Below are positions 49,122-64,000 of a stretch of DNA of 64,000 bases, piece by piece. The stretch spans positions 1,612,001-1,676,000 of the forward strand of contig JARGXX010000092.1 of the NCBI GenBank assembly GCA_030374765.1, in the 5' to 3' direction. The notes under the pieces were generated by a model. The model was not told where the DNA came from and ran no database searches. It saw only the letters and a program-made list of their open reading frames with translations. The stretch's first letter is position 1. The number at the start of each line of letters is the position of its first letter. A program made the position numbers and the translations under genes. Source of the DNA: Agarophyton chilense (taxonomy: Eukaryota; Rhodophyta; Florideophyceae; Gracilariales; Gracilariaceae).

Positions 49122-49448
49122 GTGCAGCTTCCGGCTTCTTCCTCGGGTCTTAGCCCAGAATACCTTTCTTTCAGAGCAGCTGTTCTGACTGCGCTCTTAG
49201 CTCGTGCTCCCTTGTTTTACCCTCCCGCTGACGGCTACGAAGATCTCATTGGTCAATACGTAGTCGCTGGTAGATTTCCTGACGGTATTACGTGGTATAC
49301 GTTGTTCGCGAGCAACTGGCTCAGTCACTGTGCGATTCCGAACAACGCAGTAAGCATCTTTGGCTCCGAAAGCGGAGCGGAAGCTCGCAAAAACTCCACT
49401 CTAATAGTGTATCAGCGAATGCGTTACGTGATTAGGACTGTTTTCTAG
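49122..49448 (+). pseudogene. Remnant of an antisense accessory frame in element 1
   Basis: About 108 codons on the plus strand, opposite to the gag-pol direction of element 1, between its chromodomain and its left flanking repeat. The stretch around APLFYPPADGYEDLI, with a later Ser-Glu-x-Gly-Ala-Glu-Ala block, matches APWFHPSAVRDEDLI and its following block in the long antisense frame of element 2 (residues about 123-200). It is a decayed part of a fossil element. The function of the family is unknown. Confidence 0.6.
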
Positions 49449-49828
49449 AATGAAGATTGAGACTTAGATACCTGGATCGCCAGAACGAACTGTGAAGCCT
49501 ACTCTTGTTTGGGGAGTCTCGCGGATTTGGATATCCAACTGGGGTAAATCGTCTAGCCGTATAACCATGAGATAAACTCCTTTAGTTCTGCTTCCAAACA
49601 ATTTTTCTTCTTCATGTTTTCTACTCCGTGGTTCTCCACTTTTCTCTTCATCTTCATGATACTTCATGGTACTTCTTGTCTCCTTCGAAATTAAACTAGA
49701 TCAGCACTTCCTGATACCTTTGTTGCTTCTTGTCCTCCTCAGGATCACATTAGATCAGGCCTTCCTCAGACCATACAGCCGACAAGAAAATCATCAATAT
49801 TACTGGGGATATCCAACTAAGGTCGTCA

Positions 49829-49985
49829 ACAGTACGACAACATGTGAGATTGTGCAAAGTGATGTATGGGCTCCCATATATCATCTCCGGGTTTATATCC
49901 ATACCATCGTACCCTAAACAATAGACTGTTGTCTTTGGCATGCGATTCATGGCTCATGATTCGTTCGATAACGTATTCATCTCTC
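49829..49985 (-). other. Chromodomain of element 1
   Basis: Motifs YVIERIMSH and FRVRWYGYKPGDDIWEPIHH are those of the chromodomain at the end of chromovirus integrases, which guides insertion towards marked chromatin. Its presence assigns the element to the chromoviruses. Confidence 0.8.
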
Positions 49986-51144
49986 CCATTGAGCACAGTT
50001 AAGGCCAAGATAGCGCTCTTTTGATCAGGTTCTGCCGTACGTACTTCGTGTACAGCTGAATGAGATTGCTCAATGTTCCATTGCTCCCTTGAGGCGTCTG
50101 GTGTCGCGTTGCTGCGTTCATCAGTCTTGACCCTTTGTGGGTGTCTCAAAGCCCGTCTTCTGAATTCCCGGGACCTTTCCAGTTTGGCCGGGGCCTCAAA
50201 CTCAGGATTCGGATTACTCGATTCTTTCGGCGATGACTCGATGTCTCTTCTCGCTGTACGCTTTTCCTTTGTCTTTGAGAGCAGTTTTGATTCTATGCCA
50301 ATAGTAGCGATGGGAGTTGGGTATACCCGTAATTGCGCGGCGTCTTGTTACGATTGTTCAGCCGATACAACATTGTAATTAAACAGTGGCCTTTCCACTT
50401 CAACTCCATTTCCGTCGAGATCGAGATTTCTTTTCTCCTTATAAGATTCCTTCTTTATTCTAGTGACATCCGTGTCTTTCCATCGGAGTAGCGCAAAATT
50501 CCTGCTTATTTCAGCTTTGTCTTTGTGGTGCGCTACTTTGCGCGGCGGAATAGTTATGACCCCAGGTTATTTTGTTGGTGGTTTTGCGAGGCAAGGTACG
50601 CGATTATCTTCAAATAGAGCTTTCTTCTCATTCTCCTCTCCGATCTCATTGGTATTTTTCCCGTAAACGTTACTTGGTGTGGTGGCTGCAGCTTGCTGCG
50701 TGCTCACGCTGGTTGTAGACAAGTCTGCTTTGATCTGAAATCCAAAGTCCAAAATCTCACCCATTGATGCGCCTTGTGGCGGCGACTCGCTTGCTGACGT
50801 CATGCGCCGGTTTTCCGAATCGTTCTAACCTGGAAGCAATATTTTTGAGTTATTTTTGTTCTTGGGCGGCAAGTCCACAGGAACAATAGGTCTATGCCGT
50901 AGTGTTTGAAGCTCTGTAGGCACATGAGGTAGATTTTTCTGTGGCACTTCAGCTTCAAGACTCTGCACAACGCCAGCTACATCTAAACTTTGTGCACTCA
51001 CCGTCATATCGCGTTAAATGCGCTCAAACTCAATTTCTATTCAGAAAACAACTGTATGCTTGTCAAGTTCGACAACTTCATGCGGTCCAGTGGCCATTGT
51101 CACTAACTTATGACGGCGTTTCCGTTTTTTTTCTTATCCGGTTT

Positions 51145-52891
51145 TCAGGGGCTATACTTCTTTCCTATTCTCAGGAAGACGTGTCCTCTAACTCTGATAT
51201 CCGGGAGTGCCCGCCGTACTGACGCGTCGAAATTGCGCTTGTAACGCGCTTGGCTCTTTCTTATCTGGGTTACAGCTTGTGTAGTGAGTTTGCCTAGCTC
51301 GTCTCTCCAGCAAAAAGGAAACTGAGCCTGCATCGACATGTCCTCATCTTCGGTCCTGTCCGAGCGAGTCTCGATTGGCAAAGACGGTAAGTGGCATGAT
51401 AGTACCAGCTCTAATGGCGCTAACTTCGTAGTAGAATGAACCTGCGTATTGTACGCGTAGCAAAGCGTCTCCGCATAGAGATCCCAGTTTTTAGGGTGTT
51501 CGGCGATGTAGTACCGTATTGCGGCGAGTAGCATACGGTTGCACCGTTCCAACTGCTATTTAGGTTCGGATGAGATGTCATGGTGTGCACGTTCCTAATT
51601 CCCAGTATCTTCATACATATTGAAAGAATCGTGTAACGAATTGCTCACCATTTTCCGAAAGCAGAGTATCTGGCGGTCTGTGGTTATACAAACAATGGTG
51701 GATAAACCCTTGTTCTATCACGGCAGCGGTGATCCGTTTCATTGGAACAGTCTTGATCAGCTTAAAGGAGCGATCACTAATTGCCAGAAGGTATCTGTTT
51801 CCTCGCTTCGAGCGAATCAACTCCCAGAGTATATCGATGCTGACCTACTGTAGAGGCACTTTCGGCGCAAAAAACTGCAGTGGATTCTTTTGTATCCGCA
51901 GCCTTACTTCATTTCGAGCGCATGCTGTGCACTACTTTGATGCTGCATGAAAATCCATTGCCAAAGTAGGCCATTAAAAATCCATACTGATGGTTGGATA
52001 AAGCTTCGTTCCTCACGGATGGCCAGAAAACTATGATTAATGAGCCGATTACAGTACTCTGCTCTTCAGAATGTGCGTTATCACGATTTGATCATGAACT
52101 TCGATGGTTCGAACAAGAAATCTTCGATCATCCAGACGAGAATGTAGCTCCTTCCCCCCTGTAAGACGAGAACAAATAGCCATACACAAGTCGTCCGCGA
52201 CCTGGTCACGCAGAAGCTCTTTGAGCGTTATTCGTTCCACTTGACGATCGGGATCTGTCTTCGTAATCTGTGGTACCAGTAAATCGAAAGCCCAATCTTA
52301 TTCCTCTAGACTGTTTTCCTCTTCTATATCTTTCGTTATCGGACCCTTTGGTAGCAAACATGGTATGTCATCATCGATTTCAAATTGGGATTCGCTCAAG
52401 GTTTCGAGTCGCGATAACGCGTCAGCATGAACGTTTGAAGTCCTCATCGTGGATATGACAGTGAATTCAAATTCAGAAAGACGTGAATGCCATCGCATTA
52501 ACAATCCCGAAGGTTTTTTAGTCAACATGAGCCATCTCGAACATGAGTAATCGGTATCGACCGTAACCTGTACTTCTTGGAGATAGGGCCGTAGGGTCGT
52601 TTGAGCACACTCAATAGCAAGGCTTTTCTTTTCTGATAATGAGTAATTCTTGTTTATCAGTATCAGTGACCGTGACCAGTATCCAATGGGATATCCTTTG
52701 TCGTCTTCGTGCATTTGAGAAAGGACGCACTCTACCTGATAATCACTTGAGACCGTGTCGACGGAATAGGGAACATCCGTTTCCGGAAGTGCTAAAAAAG
52801 GAGCTGAGGTCAGCGTTCGTTTCAACATCTCGAAGGCTTCTGTCTTGTAGGTTCCCAATTCTTTTAACCTTACAGGTTGTCTTTTCTTCAA
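51145..52891 (-). other. Integrase and RNase H parts of element 1
   Basis: Integrase blocks: CLYNHRPPDTLLSENGEQFV, with the conserved Asp-x-Gly/Glu-Gln-Phe region, and CYAYNTQVHSTTKLAPLEL. RNase H blocks: VDTVSSDYQVECVLSQ, YPIGYWSRSL, NYSLSEKKSLAIE and HADALSRLE, typical of Ty3/Gypsy. The parts are decayed. Confidence 0.8.
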
Positions 52892-53810
52892 GAATGCGTT
52901 CAGAAACGCTGTAATATGCGAATAATGCAGTACAAATCGTCTTTAGACGTTAAAAAGATCCAGAAAGTCTCGCAATTGTGTCTGCGTTTTAGAGGATTTC
53001 GTCTCTCGAATTGCAACGGTTTGCAATTCTTCCATTTCCAGAGTGCCTGTTCTGATCCCGTATCCCAGGTACTTCACTTGATCCGTAAACCATTCGCATT
53101 TCTTGGTCTTTAAGGTAATTCCAGCTTCTCCTAGTCTCTTCAGGATCCCCTCAAAATCTATGAATAAATCTTCATTACCCTTACTGAAAACAAGGATGTC
53201 ATCTAACTAAGCCAAGCATATCTTCCACTTGTATCACGACAGGATAATATGCATAGTCAGTTGAAACGTCGTTGGCGCATTGCTTAAACCAAATGGCATT
53301 CGCTGAAAGCGATAAAATTCTTCATGACAGACGAAAGACGTCGTATCTTGGTCCTTAGATGAAATGGGTACTTTTCAGTATCCCTAATTCCGCTGTGGGG
53401 GCTTCCTCATTTAGTTCCTTGAAAGAGCGGGGTTCTCCCTCGCCATCTTGACATTGCTTCCATCTTAAGAGGCAGCAAGCTGTGATGTTTCGATGTTCTG
53501 GAGTCTAGTAAGACCTCTTTGGGAATGATCAGAAATACACCGAGCTTTGGCTTTTCAATATGAATGACCTGGTACAACAGTGCGCTCTGCCTCTGGGATG
53601 AATTCATAATTCAAGACAACTCAATATAATCTGCTGAGAGATAGAGTACATTTTGATGACAGATGATTTCTTCGGTAGCATCAGTAGCACATCAGACCAT
53701 CCCTGTTTATTCTCAGCTGAGCCTGATTCAGTCCACGGGTATCGACCTATACTGGCTTTTTGCAAGTGAATCCTTCCTCGGGCGGGACCGTCGCACAACC
53801 TATGACGCAA
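52892..53810 (-). other. Reverse transcriptase part of element 1
   Basis: The minus strand shows a DDILVFSKG block followed by a thumb-like block with LGEAGITL, KTKKCEW and VKYLGYG, typical of Ty3/Gypsy reverse transcriptases. Decayed. Confidence 0.7.
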
Positions 53811-53839
53811 TGACTGGTAGGTCAGCGTACTGGTCTCAA

Positions 53840-54260
53840 CCTAGGGTAGCGTGATAGAGTGGGTCCTAAGGTTCGTTTCCTTGAGGGCGGCACACCTGGA
53901 GTACTTGGTGCAATGTGCGGGCGTTTACTGCGTAGTCTTACAGGTTGGAGCTACGGAAACGATGGCTTGAAGACCAATTGGTGGAACTAATGTACCAAAG
54001 AAGGTAGTTTAGTATTCTAGCGGTGCCTACCATACTTTAAGGGAGAAGTGTCACTCGAGCCAAGTGAATAGCAATGGCAAGGCGCTGGGATCTCCCTGGC
54101 ACCGTAATGCTAATCTATTACACGAATTAAAATAAATCATTAATCTAAATGAGCCTAGCTTAGGTCGGCTCGACCACATGGCGTCTGAAAGATACCTCCG
54201 GCCCCGGCGGCTTACAGGGCTCAACCGTTATTGTTGCTCCTTCACACAAACTCTGTAATG
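53840..54260. repeat. Possible LTR-like insertion between gag and RT of element 1
   Basis: Short blocks such as GGAAACGATGGC and GAAGACCAATTGG resemble the LTR-like sequence at 45.6-46.25 kb in the same order. No coding homology is visible here, although pol would be expected. The ends are not defined. Confidence 0.3.
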
Positions 54261-54907
54261 TTATTGGCGCTGCTCCAGGGCAAGCATATCATACTCTTTA
54301 AGGGATTTAGTAGACGGCAAATCCGTAATAGATGCCGAACCTCCAGGGTCGCCCAGATATTAAAGTGCGTCCTCCATGGTCTGGCTTGACTGAAGTGGCG
54401 TATGAGTCGAAACGCGCAAGTCTTCTGGTGATTCCAGATACAATAAATTGCTTCGATTTAAAGCGTGCTTGGGATCTCACTTTTTGAGGGGGTATGAACC
54501 TGAATGACGTGTTCCGCCGCGACGAGTGCGAACGGCTTCACCTTCATCCAGTGCTTACTGCTCTAATTTTAAAAAGCTATCTCGAGCATGCTACTTGCTA
54601 TGAGGAGCTACTAATGACATGATGGTCGGGTCCAAGCCACTGACGAATAGTGTCATCTTATCATCGATAGAATGAAAATTTCCACAACAGATAGCTCCGT
54701 TGTTCATTCAGTCTTTAACTGTACCCAACTTCTTTCTCACCAGACTTCTGGACAGACTATTTGAGACTCAGGATAAATTCTCGAATTGAGTTCGAAGTGG
54801 CATAACTACGCAGGAGTTATCGCACAGCTTCTGCTTATTTGGTGATTCAACTTTCATTAACCGTAAGTGATCCACTTACAGCCCGATATTGCTTAAAGCG
54901 TATCCAG

Positions 54908-55990
54908 TTAGAAAATGTAAAGAGCCACGACTTCTTGAGCTTCACTCAATCCTGAAGTGCCGGCTTCGGAAACAAATCGACTCAACAACTCGAACACGAG
55001 TATGGGACCCCTGCCAGGAAACGTAGAACCATTGATTAGAAGCTTTAAAAGCTTGATGTGATCCCTCACTTTCGCCGTTTTGCGATCAGATCGCTCGCAC
55101 TTCCAAACTTTCAACCGATACATGCGGTAATTCATTATTCCCGAAAAAGCGGATTAGTGCATGAAATGGGCTCCAGGCCTTTGTAAGCCGGGCCTTTCTT
55201 GCGACACGAAAGTGTTTGACCACTCTTATTTCTTCTGGATCTACTAGTGTCATCTTCGATTGAACTATCATCCTTTGGTTAGCTTTCGTCTTCGGAGTCG
55301 TCCGACTTACGATAACGCTCCTCCAAAATATCTCATTCCCCTTCACTGTAGCTGTTCCTTGTCAACTTTTTTGATTCCGAAGGTTTCGAAGATCGCATTT
55401 GCCCTTTTGGCTTAAGCTTGCACGTCTGCGCTTCGGAAATCATCAATTGAGCCTCCTAAAATTTCGGGTGCGGAATTGAAAAAGGTGCGTTCAACACAAT
55501 TTTCTAATCGCTCCGAGCGATGGTTGACACGTGACAGGACCTCCTCAATAGCAACTGGTAATGCTGGTAAAGCCCCAGTAGCAGTTTCCTGCTCTTCCAG
55601 CAAAGGGATTGAGATACTCTCGGACTGTCCGAACTGTATCGGACATCTGTTCTGTATCAACTTTTCTATTCTTAAAAGCAAGAAGCTCCTTTTTTATCGT
55701 TTCGAAAGACATTATTAAGAAGTTAACTTGAATTTCCATTGGCTCCAGACGGAACTTTTGCATCACAGATTCCGCCCGGAGTTGCGGCAATGCAGCTCGC
55801 AAGGCTGTGTATCTCATTAAATTACGTATAGATGAAGTAGCATCCTCTTGAACAACCGTCTTCGGTACCTCCGAAGGTTCCCCAGCGCCTCCTTTCGGTC
55901 TCTACTTGCTTCTCAACTGACGATATGGGAGATTTACAGCTTCTGTGAAACTGGCTAAGTGAGGTGCCGCTGACTCGGGCTTATCCTTAC
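54908..55990 (-). other. Gag-like part of element 1
   Basis: The stretch with KVRDHIKLLKLL, GPILVFELLSRFVSEAGT and GLSEAQEVVALYIF matches the gag opening of element 2 (63,679-63,984: KVKDCIKRMQLSL, DPILVLDFLHHFVAEADI, GMNEGQAYLALPYF). This shows the two elements are related. Decayed. Confidence 0.65.
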
Positions 55991-56790: not shown

Positions 56791-56923
56791 TATACTCCAT
56801 CTTATCCCTTATCTTTCTGTTTCTCTCCGATATAGATAGAGCATTTAGTTTATATGTAATGACCCAAACAGTCAGAACTTTAGTAAACTTTTTTCATAAC
56901 ATTATGGCCAGTAATGTCAAGAG

Positions 56924-57784
56924 TGTAGGGCAATGCCCCCAAGGGGGAAAACCTACGAAGACGTCCGGATCTTCCTCTCACGAGGTAACCGGTGCGGTAG
57001 AGCTCTCCCAGGGATCGGCGCGCAATGCCGGGTGTAAGCCGGAGCCGAACCGTCGACACGGGGAAGGGAGGCTGAAAGAAGCCGAGAATATCCGCAGAAG
57101 CGGTACTTGCGTATCCTCTGAGGAGGCAAAACCCACGAGAGTGGCGAGCACGACAGGTGCCAGTGCGAGCCGCAAGAGCGGGAATTGCCCAATGAAGGGG
57201 AGGAAAAGGGAAGGAAAATGGGAACGGAGGCAAGAGGGCGAGGTTGACCACGGGTCGCAAGAGGGGACTCGGTAATAGCCGGCACTGCCGGGTGTAGCAA
57301 ACCGTATACACGGGCGGAACCACGAAAGCGGGAATAGATACCCAACACACGAAGGCTGCTTGAACGTCCAAGGGGGTTGGGAAGCCGTGCACCACGGGAA
57401 ATCCCTCCGTATGGAGTTGTATATCCGCTCAGGCGGTTCGACCCAGAGCCAAGATCTGGAAGACCAAGATCACCCTTCTTGGGGAGACTTTACTGGACCG
57501 GCGGCCGCGAGGCCGGCGGCCTAAGTACTGTAGTCACCGTAGAATAGAATAAATAAAGTCTATCCTAAATAGCTAAATGTCCGTCTACAAAGGGGCCAAT
57601 CTGGTGGCCACGTGTCGCGCGGGCGCTGCGGCCACGTGTATGGCACCCGGTCCGGCCGGTGCATCACCGGCGTTCCGGCAACGCCGTGAAAACGGATTAC
57701 TCCTACTCATAACGAGGTTGCACGCCGGAGGCTCCGGAAAAAACTCAAGTCCCCAAAAACCTTCCTGGAGGACGTTGCTCTTCA
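56924..57784 (-). repeat. 3' LTR of element 2
   Basis: 861 bp with TG...CA ends, about 95 percent identical by eye to the solo LTR at 48,005-48,868. It carries GAATAAATAAAG on the plus strand, which could act as a polyadenylation signal for antisense transcripts or as an A/T-box for sense ones. The left flank AAGAG should be repeated after the unseen 5' LTR. Confidence 0.88.
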
Positions 57785-57798
57785 TATCCCCCCCTTAA
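57785..57798 (-). other. Polypurine tract of element 2
   Basis: On the minus strand TTAAGGGGGGGATA directly precedes the TG of the LTR, as expected for the primer of plus-strand DNA synthesis. It confirms the minus-strand orientation of the element. Confidence 0.7.
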
Positions 57799-57830
57799 GA
57801 CAGGGTGAACACCTCGAAGAGGAAGTTGGC

Positions 57831-59624
57831 ATGGCAGCTCGTCATGATAAGAGCGCGTCCGACAACGGGTCTCCGGAAACCAACACACCTTCACCAAGGA
57901 TCCCACGCACGCCCTCCGCCTCCGATTCCCACCACAGCACACCAACGCGCACCATGTCCAATCCCGACCGTCATAACACATCCGCGACTCCCGCCCTTGG
58001 CGGTTCCACCGGCTTCCGGACCGCGCCTCACCCTGGGGATGTTACCAACCGAACTCCGGCCGTCAACCTCGCGTACGAAGACCGCCGTATTGGCGCCCGC
58101 TTTCGCGGACAGGCGGACCCACCGCAGTGGCCGACCTACGACGCCCTTGTCGGTGCAAATCCGAGAACTCGGCATGGCTCCGCGATGTTGCTGTATGCGC
58201 CTTGGTTTCACCCATCGGCTGTCCGCGACGAGGATTTGATCCAGTCCTTTACCGATAATTCGGAGATGCTCCCGGGCGACCTGCCCGGCGTGGTGACCAT
58301 GTCCTTGGATTGGCGTAATCGTATCGCCATACCGGTACACCACATACTCCACCAACGCGGTGAATCCTCTGCGGAGGCTCAGGCCGCGCTCGTGCGGATC
58401 GCTTATCTCAGGCACCATCGGGCGCCTTTCGAGTTCCCGATACCGCCAGAGGTCGAATTCGACGTCCACCTTTACCGCACTCGCGGGGAAATGTCGTACT
58501 GTGACCGTCTAAACGGATTGGAAACCCTCGCTTGGAGGGGCACACCGATCGCTCGGCAAGAAGCCCTTTGCTGGGCACGACCGATTCTTCGGGCAGAGTT
58601 CCGCTACCAACCGCGGCAGTCGCGCTCGAACTTCCTTCAGAACTTCATCCGCGATGAGCGGCGTTGGCGGGCTCGGACCGGGTATTTCGTACCGTACCAG
58701 AACACGGAGATTGAGCGCATCGCGCCTGCTAACCGACGTGGTAGGTACGTCAGTCTCCCGGACTGGTGGTCCTCCTTGGAGGCGTGCTGGGGTTGCTTCA
58801 TTGAGCTGCCCCCAGTCTTCACCTATGTAGGGTCGTCGTTCTTGAACGATCCCCAGTCGGGGTGGTGGTCCGTCGTGGTAAGCGAATGGGCCGTCCGCAC
58901 TGCGGCTTTTATCCTCGCTGAGGCGTACGACCAATACCGATTGTGGTACGTGCCACCGCGTGTGCGTGCTGCGATCCGCCGTTTGGACATGCGCATCCCC
59001 CTCGGGGGCGAGGCGAACGAAGAAGAGATGCTGGGCCTCCTCGACTTTGTGGAGGGGGTCCAGTGGGATGAGGTCCCGCTGGAGAACTCCCGACGCATTC
59101 AACCGCGTCGCGGGTCTGGCCCCGGATTCGGGAGGAATACCGCGCTTGCGGGGGATTTCATCTACTTCGACCCCTGGGAGTACCACGAGATCAGCCGCGA
59201 GGAAGCGGAAGCCAACCGGCATGCGCCGCGTGAAGTCCCGGCCGACCACACGCGAGGGTATGTCGACTCGAGCGACTATTGCCGCGACTATGCGGATGGT
59301 GACCCGATGGTCGACAACGAACCGGAGGATCCGGGTTACGCTCCGATGGAGGATGACAAGTCCGGCGAGGCCGGTGAGGAGTCCGTTGAATACGGTGGTG
59401 CGGCTCAATCCGGGGCTGCTGATGCCGTGCGGACGGATTCCTATCCGACTTCATCGGTGGCGGGCCCACCTGCAACTGCCGCTGGCGCGGAGCGGGGCGA
59501 GGTCATCGCGCGCTTCCTTCGGATGGTGGAGCTTCGCCCTTGCGAGATCTCGGGTGATGTGGCCGCCATGCGGGATGCCTTAGTCAACCGCCTGGGCGGG
59601 GGTCCACCTCGTGCGGAGGAATGA
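57831..59624 (+). CDS. Antisense accessory frame of element 2, function unknown
   Basis: 597 codons on the plus strand, opposite to gag-pol, starting 46 bp inside the 3' LTR boundary and filling the space between LTR and pol. Not recognised as any known family. Residues 1-90 are Ser/Thr/Pro-rich and disordered. About 95-430 is a globular, Trp-rich region (APWFHPSAVRDEDLI, DWRNRIAIPVHHILHQRG, LPDWWSSLEACWGCFIELPP, GWWSVVVSEWAVRTAAFILA). The C-terminal 150 residues are acidic and disordered. There is no Cys/His cluster, membrane segment or obvious catalytic motif. Third codon positions are GC-rich, like the rest of the element and unlike host genes nearby. The frame looks whole. A decayed relative lies at the same place in element 1. 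A role in gene silencing control, movement or host interaction is open. Confidence 0.75.
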   Translation: MAARHDKSASDNGSPETNTPSPRIPRTPSASDSHHSTPTRTMSNPDRHNTSATPALGGSTGFRTAPHPGDVTNRTPAVNLAYEDRRIGARFRGQADPPQWPTYDALVGANPRTRHGSAMLLYAPWFHPSAVRDEDLIQSFTDNSEMLPGDLPGVVTMSLDWRNRIAIPVHHILHQRGESSAEAQAALVRIAYLRHHRAPFEFPIPPEVEFDVHLYRTRGEMSYCDRLNGLETLAWRGTPIARQEALCWARPILRAEFRYQPRQSRSNFLQNFIRDERRWRARTGYFVPYQNTEIERIAPANRRGRYVSLPDWWSSLEACWGCFIELPPVFTYVGSSFLNDPQSGWWSVVVSEWAVRTAAFILAEAYDQYRLWYVPPRVRAAIRRLDMRIPLGGEANEEEMLGLLDFVEGVQWDEVPLENSRRIQPRRGSGPGFGRNTALAGDFIYFDPWEYHEISREEAEANRHAPREVPADHTRGYVDSSDYCRDYADGDPMVDNEPEDPGYAPMEDDKSGEAGEESVEYGGAAQSGAADAVRTDSYPTSSVAGPPATAAGAERGEVIARFLRMVELRPCEISGDVAAMRDALVNRLGGGPPRAEE

Positions 59625-59955
59625 CCGGAGCTTCCGGTAGAATGTAGGGCGGCGCCACTAGGGCGCCCTTGCCAGTAGTGAGAAATAAAAGAAGAGGTCG
59701 CCTTTTCGACGCTTTTTCCCAAGTCCACTTCTTTCTTTCCGGGGTACCGGCCTTCAACCGGGGTTCCGGCGTTGCAGGGAACCAGCCTAGCTGGGAGTTC
59801 CGTGTTTAACGGTGGTCGCTTCGCGCGCGGACCAGGTAACTGGCACGACCACCAACGAGGTTGGGATAGCGTGAGCGGTTGCTTCCTTCCCCGCGTTGGG
59901 GCATGGACGGAGATGGCGCGTGGCGCCATCAGCCATTCCATTCCGTGTTCACGGT

Positions 59956-62178
59956 TTATCCCTCTTGGGCGTTTACCAGCGTGCCTGGGAGTGCGGTCCC
60001 CGCAAGGCTGTGGTATCGCATTACCGCAGAGCGCGGGAGGTGCTCGATGGGCTCCGGGGTGTCCCACTCCAGCCCGTATCCGTACCAGCGGGTCCGGTAC
60101 TGGAGCACCCCGTGCCCATCGTAGCTATGTCCGACGATTCGGTCGAGGACGTACTCCTGCACGTAAACTTGCCGGCCTTGCCGGGTGGTGGTGACCCGAG
60201 CCTCAGCGCCGCGTGTTGATGGGCTCGTTGTCGCCTGTTCCGGGTCACCCGGTTTGTCATTCCGCTCTGCGGTTGTTGCCGGGTTGCCGGGGCTGCCGTA
60301 CCGCTTCGGGGAAGGTACCGGCGTGGCCGGGTTGTGTTTCCGCTGGGCGGTAGGGGCTTCCCTGAAGTCCGCTCTTACCGCGAGTTGGCGGGGGTCCTTC
60401 CGTCTTGGTGCCGGTTCGCGGGAGGCCTCCGCTTGATTTGCGGCATGCGGCATTCCCATTGATGGGCAGTTTCCGCTGTGCGGTGCGCCGTGGGCGGTGA
60501 GTGGTTCACCGTCCCGGCGATCCGCCTCCGCGAGGTGGCTGTCAGCCAATGACCGGGATGCCGGGTGCCCATTGGTCCGATCTCCCGCCCGGGTCACGTG
60601 ACCTTGAGGATGGGTGGTCGGGCCGTCGCGGACGGTTGGCTCCGATTGTTCGGCAAGGGAGGCGGTTTTCGACTTGTCGTTGCGCCCCTTTTGCCCCATG
60701 GGGTTCGTACCGTTCTCAACGGAGTGGCTCGCTAGACCTGCTTGCGCAGCGCCCGCCGGGGTACCGGTATCGACCGAAACGCTCGGTATGTAACCGCGAA
60801 TGTGCGGGGAGCCCTCAGTTGCTTCCACGCGATGCGGAGCGTCCGTAGGGTCTCGCTTCCCGGCTTCGGGTCTTCGAGCGCCTTGGTCCCCCTTTCGGGG
60901 TTGCGTGGAGGTCGGGTTGACCGCCGCGTCCCGCGGGAGCGGATTGGCGTCCGGCGACGGTGCCGGTTGCCTGCTCGGGGGCCTTGCCCGGGGTGTCCGG
61001 TTAGACTTCCGTTGCGACGGCGATGCTTCCGCGATTGAGCGGGTCCCCTCCCCCTCCTTAGACGGAGCGACATAGAGAGCAGTAGAAGCGCCCAACTGGC
61101 GGGGATAGACACCGCGCAGTGGCGTGAGAGAAGAAAGGCCATCCAGGCCAGCGTCCGATTGAATCGGTATATCAGAGAGTCCCACGGGTGGGTTGTAGAG
61201 CGAGAATCGCTTATTGGCGGGCAAGGCAACCATCTGCATGGGATAGATTAGCCCTACCGTAGAAACGGGAACTTCCGCAATATGCGAGGGATTCTGAGAA
61301 CCATTCTCATTGCAAGGGGCTGAAGCATCCAGAGTTCTGTTAAATGGCCCTCCTCTGCGCCTTGGGCGTATGCAGGCCATCGAACGCTGAACAGCGGAAG
61401 GCATTACTGAAAGCCACGAGTTCCAGCAACTCTCATGATCCGAACCATTCGGTAGCCCATCCAGCAATGGCTGGGCTTTGAAATTCACCAACTCAGGTGG
61501 TATCTTTCCGACGTCAGTCGTGCAGAACCGACGGTAGTCGATGACAACAATCCAAGAACCATTGGATAACTTAACCAGTACTGCTGGTGGCGACACACAC
61601 GGCAGTGTGGATAAGTTCAGCGTAGACTGGGGACCTCCGACGAGATTATCTCCCTCCTCAGAGTGACCCATTCCGGTTGAACCGGTACGATCCCCTTGAA
61701 GGGTAAAGATAGACATGGGGTGAGGAGCAACTCTTCCAATGACTTGGTTCCTAACCAGATACTGGTGTTTCTCTCCAGAGTTGGACACACATACACAAAA
61801 CGATTTGTCCGGCTCAATGTGAACCATTCCATCCGCGAAAGCGAGTTGATGCCTGTTCGACAGTGATGGTATCGGTCGAACGATTCGAGTACCATGCTGA
61901 CGAGAACTGACACGCACCCAAGAGTGGGACTTTGGCGAAATGCAAATCGACTCGTCGACACGTAGCTTCGTAGAATCCCGGTTCGCCGGTGTGGGTTCCT
62001 GCGCAGCAGGTAGAGGAACGTGTTTACTCGATGCCCACTTCAGCGGTTGACGAACAATGGGGACGGTCGATCCGTCCTCAAGTTCCACCTGCTTAAGGCG
62101 TGGGCGGATGGCGTCGACAAACCTGTTCGCAGTAGTCACTTCCCAGTATGACAGGCGCGGCCAGCGAGCGGCACACAA
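59956..62178 (-). other. Pol-derived frame of element 2 with a C-terminal chromodomain
   Basis: The opening overlaps the protease frame. VLVKLSNGSWIVVIDYRRF corresponds to the first reverse-transcriptase block of Ty3/Gypsy pol. A long linker rich in Pro, Arg, Ser and Gly follows. Near the end (about 60,030-60,185) YVLDRIVGHSYDGHG with RWYGYGLEWDTPEPIEHL is a chromodomain. Fossil part; not a host gene. Confidence 0.75.
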
Positions 62179-62590
62179 TAAAAGTTAGTTTAACCACCAT
62201 CCGCCCTAGCCTGACGACTAGGTCGATCACACCAACCGTTTTCAACGGGTTGTTATTGGCGTCTGAGACGTCGGGTACCGTTTCAGAACGGATGAGTGAC
62301 CGCAATGGCGGGGGTAAAACCGATTCCACAATAAAGTTTGGCCCAGCACCTGTATCCAGGACAGTGAGATATCTCACCATAAACTGCGTATGCAGACCAA
62401 GGTCAGCGTAAACCTTGTAGTTACGCTTGGCCATTACCAAGGCCCTATCCGGGATCCGGTTATTTCTAATCCGTATCCACGGTCGACGCAAAACACCCAG
62501 GTGTTTAGAGTCCGCGTCTGCGGTGTCCTTCCTTGTCAGGATTTTCACCGGGGAGCGAGGCATCGGCGCCTCGGGCGTCGTCAGCCTCAA
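62093..62590 (-). other. Retropepsin-type protease frame of element 2
   Basis: LTVLDTGAGPNFI is the D-T/S-G-A active-site block of retroviral-type aspartic proteases, with a later VILGSDYCE block matching the I-L-G-x-D motif. Confidence 0.8.
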
Positions 62591-62649
62591 CTCTGAGGAC
62601 GCCTCTCCCGAAGGGGAGACTCCCTCTATTCTTTTCCCTGTACAGGGTC

Positions 62650-63984
62650 CTAGTCGGGCGAAGGCCCGACTTCCTCGGCAACGAGTGCATGATTCCGTTG
62701 CACGGTAGCTACCGCAGGAGCGGGTTGAGATCCACCAGCGTGGTTTGGCGCTGGTGCGGCGCGTGCCGGCTGAGCCAGTTTGTACCGAGAATTCGGAGTG
62801 TGAGCCAATGCGTTGGGGAAGTCCGTCTTCGCACGGAGATATGACGTGAGTGGCACGGAGCCCTTCTCCTGCGGGGAGAGGGCTTCGTAATTATCCACCA
62901 CTCGCGCCATATCGCGTAGCGATAAAAGGCATTGCGGGGAGGTGTGCCCGCGCTCGTAGCACAAGTGGCACACCAAGGTCACTCCCGCGTTTCGCGGTAC
63001 GGCATTCCGAGCATCGGTGTATCTTCCGGGTTCCCGGTTTCCAACCCATCCAGGGCGCTGACTTTGTGTCATTCTGTTCGAGTACGGCATATGAGGGGCC
63101 GGAGTGCGGCGGTCATTAAGATAAAAGACCTGCCCGTTCTCCGTGTCCCTTGCGGTTGAGTCAACCGAGCCATCCGTCGTAGACGGTAATTCAGTTGTCG
63201 GAATAGATAAACCATCGTGATGGATGACATTCATATTGTCATAACCCTGTTTGGGGATGCCATCCGTCGCAAATGACGGTGAAGAAGAGTCCGACTCAAG
63301 CAGCAATGATTTAGCGGCCTTCGACCGGGTTCCCGGATTGAGTGCACGTAGTGCATCTCCCTCTGTGCGGGCAAACTGTACTAGTTCAAGGTAGTTCACC
63401 TTCGGCTCTTGTTCCCTGTAACGGGCGACAACAGTCTTGATGGCTGGATCCAAGCCATCAATGAACATCGTACAGCGTTCCCCAGCAGGGTATACATTAC
63501 CACAACGGTGGAAAGCCTTATTCAGGCGTACCGAGTAATCTGTCTCGAGCTCGCCGGAGCGTTGTCGAGTGTCTCGCAAAGCCAGTATCGCCGCTTGTAT
63601 CGCGGAGTCGGTTGCGTAGGAACGCAGGAGGTACTGCACGGCCTCGGGCCAGCAGGTCACACCTCCTTCGGAGGCTCGCTACGAGCCCCGAACCGACAAA
63701 TACTGATCTTCAGCGACACCCCGTAGAAAGTAGGGTAGCGCCAAGTAGGCTTGTCCTTCGTTCATTCCGAGTATATCGGCTTCCGCTACAAAGTGGTGTA
63801 GGAAATCCAAGACCAGAATTGGATCATCCCCAGTATACGACTGGTTACGAAGTGAAAGCTGCATCCGCTTGATGCAGTCTTTCACTTTACCCGTGTCACG
63901 CGGTGTCCGACCTAAAGAGGAATCGTCTAGCCGGTAATACCAGTAGGACAGGAGTGTCCTGTACAGAGGGTTGGTGGGCTTCAA
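62650..63984 (-). other. Gag region of element 2
   Basis: Two neighbouring minus-strand frames. The first has DPILVLDFLHHFVAEADI. The second has RQRSGELETDYSVRLNKAF, a zinc knuckle CHLCYERGHTSPQC (C-x2-C-x4-H-x4-C), and a Pro/Ala-rich end. This layout is that of a Ty3/Gypsy gag. It continues towards the 5' end outside the window. Fossil part. Confidence 0.8.
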
Positions 63985-64000
63985 GGGTTTGAGGCCCGGA

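Follow-up and report, generated by a model that had tools for sequence, protein, structure and literature searches.

What is a long, intact reading frame doing on the opposite strand of a retrotransposon? The question is raised by a 64,000-nucleotide stretch of the genome of the red alga Agarophyton chilense (contig JARGXX010000092.1, positions 1,612,001 to 1,676,000; referred to here as the window, whose numbering is used throughout). In it, a Ty3/Gypsy-type long terminal repeat (LTR) insertion on the minus strand carries a 597-codon antisense open reading frame (aORF) between pol and the 3' LTR. The frame occupies positions 57831-59624 of the plus strand, opposite to gag-pol, and runs from an ATG start to a TGA stop. 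It was identified by a scan for open reading frames, by its copies in the genome and by homologues in Gracilariopsis and Gracilaria, and its conservation indicates that it is almost certainly a real protein-coding gene under selection.

The minus strand of the window element encodes gag, parts of pol and a chromodomain. Its 3' LTR (56924-57784, minus strand) has TG...CA ends and was recognized by self-comparison, being 97.2% identical to the 5' LTR at 64861-65722, beyond the window. The target-site duplication AAGAG at 56919-56923 has its partner directly after 65722, also outside the window. A polypurine tract, AAGGGGGGGATA (57785-57796, minus strand), adjoins the 3' LTR; its function is assigned by convention for LTR elements. 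The aORF start codon lies 47 bp from the edge of the 3' LTR, and the pol frame stops at 59956, so that the two genes do not overlap. Shuffling 57785-59955 500 times with dinucleotides preserved gave, for the longest open reading frame per shuffle, a median of 156 codons, a 99th percentile of 319 and a maximum of 522, compared to the 597 observed. The frame scan, the shuffles and the delimitation of the LTR all agree with the first-pass annotation, which had described a chromovirus with a long, intact antisense frame lying between its pol gene and its 3' LTR.

That annotation had also considered that no other copy of the element might carry the frame. In the host assembly (79.8 Mb), the frame was found at at least 73 scored places with 92-100% identity, the window copy included; these constitute the W subfamily. 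A genome search with more distant database relatives revealed subfamilies B (at least 71 scored places) and C (at least 88), as well as group D, similar to the database protein P0004, with a 651-codon open frame at locus L065. The place counts for all four are lower bounds, and the matches favor the best-kept copies. Subfamilies B and C have 33-34% identity to the window protein in alignment, and D has 50% over 570 residues by tblastn. The frame is free of stops at 51 of the 73 W places and at 43 of the 71 B places. The W share is like that of gag (36/63) and of the reverse transcriptase (RT) part of pol (33/55), and on these stop counts we rejected, for the family, the earlier suggestion that the frame outlives pol. 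The observation behind it, that pol is incomplete where the aORF is open, is correct for the window copy, in which neither the RT/RNase H part nor the integrase query found a match, and incorrect for the family, since pol frames reach 1847-1848 amino acids (aa) in other W copies.

The arrangement of the frame relative to pol is regular. An antisense position between pol and the 3' LTR was established for the window copy and W loci, the LTR edge being delimited in W only, and the pol side was also seen in B, C and D. The aORF continues into the pol end in all 30 W loci compared (L001-L030). Of 30 divergent loci (L035-L064), 29 have a chromodomain on the opposite strand, just past the aORF stop; the exception, L062, is without one in the stretch examined. 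In the D locus L065 the chromodomain is likewise antisense beside the aORF. DNA matches to the aORF/pol junction cover the full query in 38 of the 40 scored cases and begin at base 3 in the other two. An aORF or junction match was found within 5 kb of 34 of the 55 scored pol places, always on the opposite strand and never on the same strand. On the LTR side, the frame of subfamilies B and C is preceded by a matching pyrimidine run.

The host element is assigned to the chromoviruses by its domains (RT, RNase H, integrase and chromodomain). RVT_1 (4.2e-36) and RT_RNaseH (2.6e-36) were found in L032, and Integrase_H2C2 and rve were found in L034 and were absent from the window copy and from a short form of the element. 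The window chromodomain, at the C-terminal end of pol (60013-60153, minus strand), scores 23.5 bits with Pfam Chromo, below the cut-off of 25.1, and its counterparts at one locus each of subfamilies C and B score above it (29.5 and 27.2 bits); the W stretch of L032 gave no Chromo match at E up to 0.01. The distance from pol to the aORF has two main values, ~1590 and ~2916 bp, and the short type (L032, L033) is without the ~1.3 kb of L034 in which the integrase domains sit.

Constraint was measured by dividing the variants of 31 W copies into singletons, which are mostly post-insertion, and shared variants, which mostly date from the lineage of active copies. Loci L032 and L034 duplicate L025 and L002 and were excluded from the variant and indel tests. 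Shared variants in the W aORF (synonymous S=56, nonsynonymous N=70) gave a dN/dS ratio (omega) of 0.54 (p=0.0006), not the value near 1 that had been named as evidence against the gene, and singletons gave a near-neutral 0.90. For the pol end, which served as a positive control, the values were 0.66 and 1.10, and for pseudo-frames in the LTR they were 0.78-1.27, none of them significant. By these ratios the aORF frame is constrained much like the pol end. Among 27 copies of subfamily B, omega was 0.60 for shared variants (p=0.017) and 0.80 for singletons; the subfamily C loci L035, L036 and L059 were left out of the B tests, and L062, with a disrupted frame, was kept. Pairwise dN/dS between intact copies was 0.54 in 27 W sequences, where L002 and L034 count a single place twice, and 0.61 in 7 B sequences.

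The distribution of indels and stops is consistent with these ratios. Compared to the window copy, 30 W copies have no frameshifting indels in the aORF, the apparent ones being a single in-frame 18-bp deletion; shared frameshifting indels number 12 in the 861 bp of the LTR and 3 in the 331-bp spacer. In subfamily B, all 8 frameshifting indels of the aORF are singletons; shared ones occur outside it, 9 of them in the 366-bp spacer and another 6 over 851 bp toward the LTR. In the majority state of the W copies, the aORF frame is free of stops, and the other five frames have 3-20 each. When the window region was compared by tblastx with four divergent loci, the aORF frame scored 253-395 bits and the best other frame 157-177 bits.

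Several observations weigh against this interpretation or against parts of the functional account given below. The W loci were retrieved by means of the aORF protein, which biases the sample against stops, frameshifts and replacement changes. In subfamily B, omega is lowest in the core of the protein (0.46 shared, 0.61 singleton), but the core was also the search query, and the low singleton value shows the retrieval bias; outside the core query, shared variants give a nonsignificant 0.73 (p=0.30) and singletons 0.96. Shared omega is low in the opposite-strand frame 1- too (0.66 in W, 0.59 in B), which we read as a codon-phase shadow because that frame holds 19 stops in W and 21 in B. Only 20 of the 88 subfamily C places are free of stops; identities there are mostly 88-92%, suggesting that C is older. 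No aORF was found among the matches listed for 21 of the 55 pol places, so that the gene may not be present in every element. Neither AATAAA nor ATTAAA occurs within 500 bp of the stop in six B loci. Finally, AlphaFold2 (AF2) models calculated from two sets of 6 and 7 sequences had mean predicted local distance difference test (pLDDT) scores of only 36.6 and 34.2; structure prediction, which had been proposed as a check, was thus carried out and yielded no usable model, and because the models are poor no fold backs any function.

The encoded protein has the layout expected of a real gene product, as had been claimed from the single copy: a basic head free of tryptophan (Trp), an acidic tail, and all 15 Trp residues within residues 95-470. 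Alignments define a conserved Trp/Arg-rich core over approximately the same residues (58113-59240, plus strand), which includes a PxLRAEFR block and, across the family, numerous invariant Arg residues. Translation may instead begin at Met42 (57954-59624, plus strand), a candidate alternative start that aligns with a Met of P0001, P0005 and subfamily B; an ATG is present at this position in 30 of 30 other W copies and at the first ATG in 29 of 30. No membrane segment was found, the maximum 19-residue hydropathy being 1.17. The favored description is of a soluble product with a disordered basic head, a Trp/Arg-rich core and an acidic tail.

Relatives of this protein are few. A search of 5.8 billion proteins, which scored only candidates with short words in common with the query and may miss distant relatives, returned six homologues, the named ones being from Gracilariopsis chorda and Gracilaria domingensis. 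P0001 (617 aa) and P0006 come from Gracilariopsis chorda and P0003 from Gracilaria domingensis; all three are entered in their host genomes as hypothetical proteins, and P0001 matches 99% of the query at 53% identity. For pol, 2519 relatives were found at E up to 1e-50 among 8000 scored, the best being from Agarophyton chilense (66%), and PF00385 is present in many of the pol relatives listed. The antisense gene looks narrower in its spread than its pol, which may be due to fast evolution, to a late gain of the gene or to the limited reach of the search. The first-pass annotation had recognized no family for the protein, and the profile searches concur: Pfam at E up to 10 gave only four unrelated one-member matches (best 0.16), and the PDB gave no relative, its single match at E 8.3 being disregarded. 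Among viral contigs, 5 pattern matches included no relative.

Signals around the frame are consistent with a transcription unit of its own. An AATAAA lies 59 bp after the stop in the orientation of the aORF (59684-59689, plus strand) and is present in 28 of 31 W copies; in two C loci the same motif stands 49 and 52 bp beyond the stop, and in the D locus L065 ~35 bp beyond it. Since the start codon is so close to the LTR, a putative promoter would have to sit within the LTR or at its very border, and the AATAAA past the stop makes a separate antisense message likely, as in the plant element Grande according to passages of PMC7264820. In the explanation that we favor, the aORF is an accessory protein gene of a red-algal chromodomain Ty3/Gypsy lineage, most likely of the Gracilariales. 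Its transcript would start at an antisense promoter within or next to the 3' LTR and run inward, forming a unit apart from gag-pol. The product would be a soluble trans-acting factor, probably nuclear, that binds either the nucleic acid of the element or a partner in host chromatin, and it may tune transcription, nuclear entry or integration, as has been proposed for the antisense genes of plant elements. Taken as a whole statement, we consider this explanation to be somewhat better than an even bet. Its regulatory part is a guess, about evenly balanced, and the nuclear regulatory role, while favored, rests on analogy. The broken window copy is compatible with supply of such a factor in trans and does not prove it.

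The frame could also derive from a captured host gene carried as a passenger with no part in replication of the element, and the annotation of its relatives as hypothetical host proteins would fit such an origin. We consider this unlikely: the gene keeps one position and one orientation throughout four subfamilies that are 33-50% identical to the window protein, a passenger would not be expected to be constrained as the pol end is, and there is no single-copy host relative among the matches listed. Alternatively, the antisense transcript may act as RNA, through double strands, self-silencing or copy-number control, with the protein incidental. Convergent antisense transcription toward pol would indeed yield double-stranded RNA, an option raised in PMC7264820, and RNA and protein roles could coexist; however, conservation of the protein in one frame across subfamilies, the deficit of replacement changes and the lack of shared frameshifts point to selection on the protein, and the RNA explanation by itself seems improbable. 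An envelope-like or cell-to-cell movement protein made from the antisense message is far less probable, even though env-like genes do occupy the region between pol and the 3' LTR in elements described in PMC7264820; the orientation here is antisense, and we rejected this role on the hydropathy value, which leaves no membrane segment. A chance frame, or the shadow of a sense-strand gene in GC-rich DNA, is effectively refuted by the shuffles, the tblastx frame scores, the stops in the majority state and the 53% identity shared with P0001 (617 aa), which belongs to a different genus, although long frames do exist on the strand opposite the aORF (299 aa at 58509-59408; 397 aa in L032).

The first-pass annotation had placed antisense frames of this region in plant Gypsy lineages, and this agrees with the Tat/Retand group of plant Ty3/Gypsy elements (Grande gene23, RIRE2, Silene Retand), which also have an antisense frame between pol and the 3' LTR. 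Such frames are not confined to plants: passages of PMC7264820 name Grande, RIRE2, Retand, PvRetro13 and the fungal element Boty as carriers, and antisense transcription of its own is reported for Grande (PMC7264820, PMC11963269). Tat/Retand is a flowering-plant, non-chromovirus lineage, whereas the red-algal element has a chromodomain. The Retand antisense proteins are of the TRP28 type (PMC11963269), corresponding to PF04195, which none of nine members of the red-algal family matches at E up to 10 with the HMMER filters on.

Boty, like the red-algal element, has an antisense extra gene outside plants and is grouped in PMC7264820 with the antisense frames between pol and the 3' LTR, but its host is a fungus. 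This gene, brtn of the Boty-like elements of Botrytis cinerea (Zhao et al. 2011, via PMC8365987 and PMC7264820), was compared by description only. No fungal protein is named among the homologue matches listed, in a search that scored a limited number of candidates. Should Boty carry a chromodomain, chromoviruses with an antisense gene would already be known. A more distant parallel is HBZ of human T-cell leukemia virus type 1 (HTLV-1), a deltaretrovirus, where an antisense gene transcribed from a 3' LTR promoter encodes a nuclear protein (PMC11963269, PMC7264820); the comparison is an analogy only, and HTLV-1 is a retrovirus of people. With chromoviruses the red-algal family shares RT, RNase H, integrase and a C-terminal chromodomain, and differs from them in its additional antisense gene, whose family is absent from Pfam. 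Chromoviruses have been named for green and red algae (PMC3605345, where the abstract alone names red algae), and for Gracilariopsis lemaneiformis passages of PMC5970526 give LTR elements as 17% of the genome, with the word antisense absent. Among the literature matches listed, from a scope that took in few subscription papers and preprints, no title or abstract opening joins red algae and an antisense gene in a chromovirus.

The remainder of the window element is a mosaic. The pol C-terminal part (59956-61071, minus strand) was defined by comparison with W loci, and 56924-61071 as a whole is ~94.5-96% identical to other W loci. The next segment, 61072-61957 (minus strand), is foreign to the other W copies in DNA comparison and is partly a divergent pol homologue; the RT, RNase H and integrase core is missing. 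Positions 61624-62127 contain such a divergent homologue, with 57% identity to pol residues 68-235. Beyond it are a protease-bearing part of pol (62093-62590, minus strand) with a DTGAG motif, which we take to be that of the protease, and gag (62629-63996, minus strand), of which a protein search detects residues 252-707 in the window and which runs on past it. No tRNA primer-binding site could be assigned on inspection of the 5' LTR edge by eye. The foreign segment sits between flanks that are 94-97% identical, within an intact target duplication, and by this comparison the window copy is chimeric and non-autonomous. Because the target duplication encloses the entire element, the chimera probably formed before insertion and was mobilized by the proteins of other copies.

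A second, decayed chromodomain element of another subfamily (49194-55147) also carries a remnant of the antisense gene. The aORF remnant, closest to subfamily C, lies at 49194-49535 on the plus strand (tblastn E 1.8e-23); on the minus strand are a chromodomain at 49832-49978 (Pfam Chromo, 29.3 bits) and, by protein search, remnants of RT, RNase H and integrase at 51370-53389 and of gag at 53543-55147. A 445-bp repeat at 53805-54248 is 84% identical to 66312-66755, just past the window, and has a partial match beside L022. The recurrent short form of the element (L032, L033) retains gag, RT and the antisense gene. Its copies on contigs C68 (L032) and C77 (L033) are arranged in tandem and apparently share LTRs, with aORF starts spaced by exactly 9197 bp (three on C68) and 9249 bp (two on C77). 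At L028 and L029, copies ~1.3 kb apart in opposite orientation have an inverted LTR stretch in common.

Antisense accessory genes at the site between pol and the 3' LTR are an already known kind, as the sources cited above describe them. What appears to be new, judged by the literature matches listed, is the protein family, its presence in red-algal chromodomain elements and its retention across four subfamilies. The gene has stayed open in several old branches of the family and so probably helps the element in some way. Antisense genes of LTR elements recur in distant hosts, and their function is left open in the passages of the literature that treat them; a high-copy family with four diverged subfamilies in one genome offers material for deep alignment, for work on the fold and for tests of promoter and localization. 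There is also a consequence for genome annotation, in which such frames can pass as host genes, as may be the case for the hypothetical proteins P0001, P0003 and P0006. The antisense-gene arrangement extends to red algae. A bolder proposal, which we regard as possible and hold only tentatively, is that red-algal chromoviruses independently evolved two-way expression, with gag-pol transcribed from one LTR and a convergent antisense gene from the other, the latter encoding a novel fold needed for spread. If true, antisense accessory genes would have originated in yet another group of LTR elements, in addition to plant Tat/Retand elements, fungal Boty and the deltaretroviruses.
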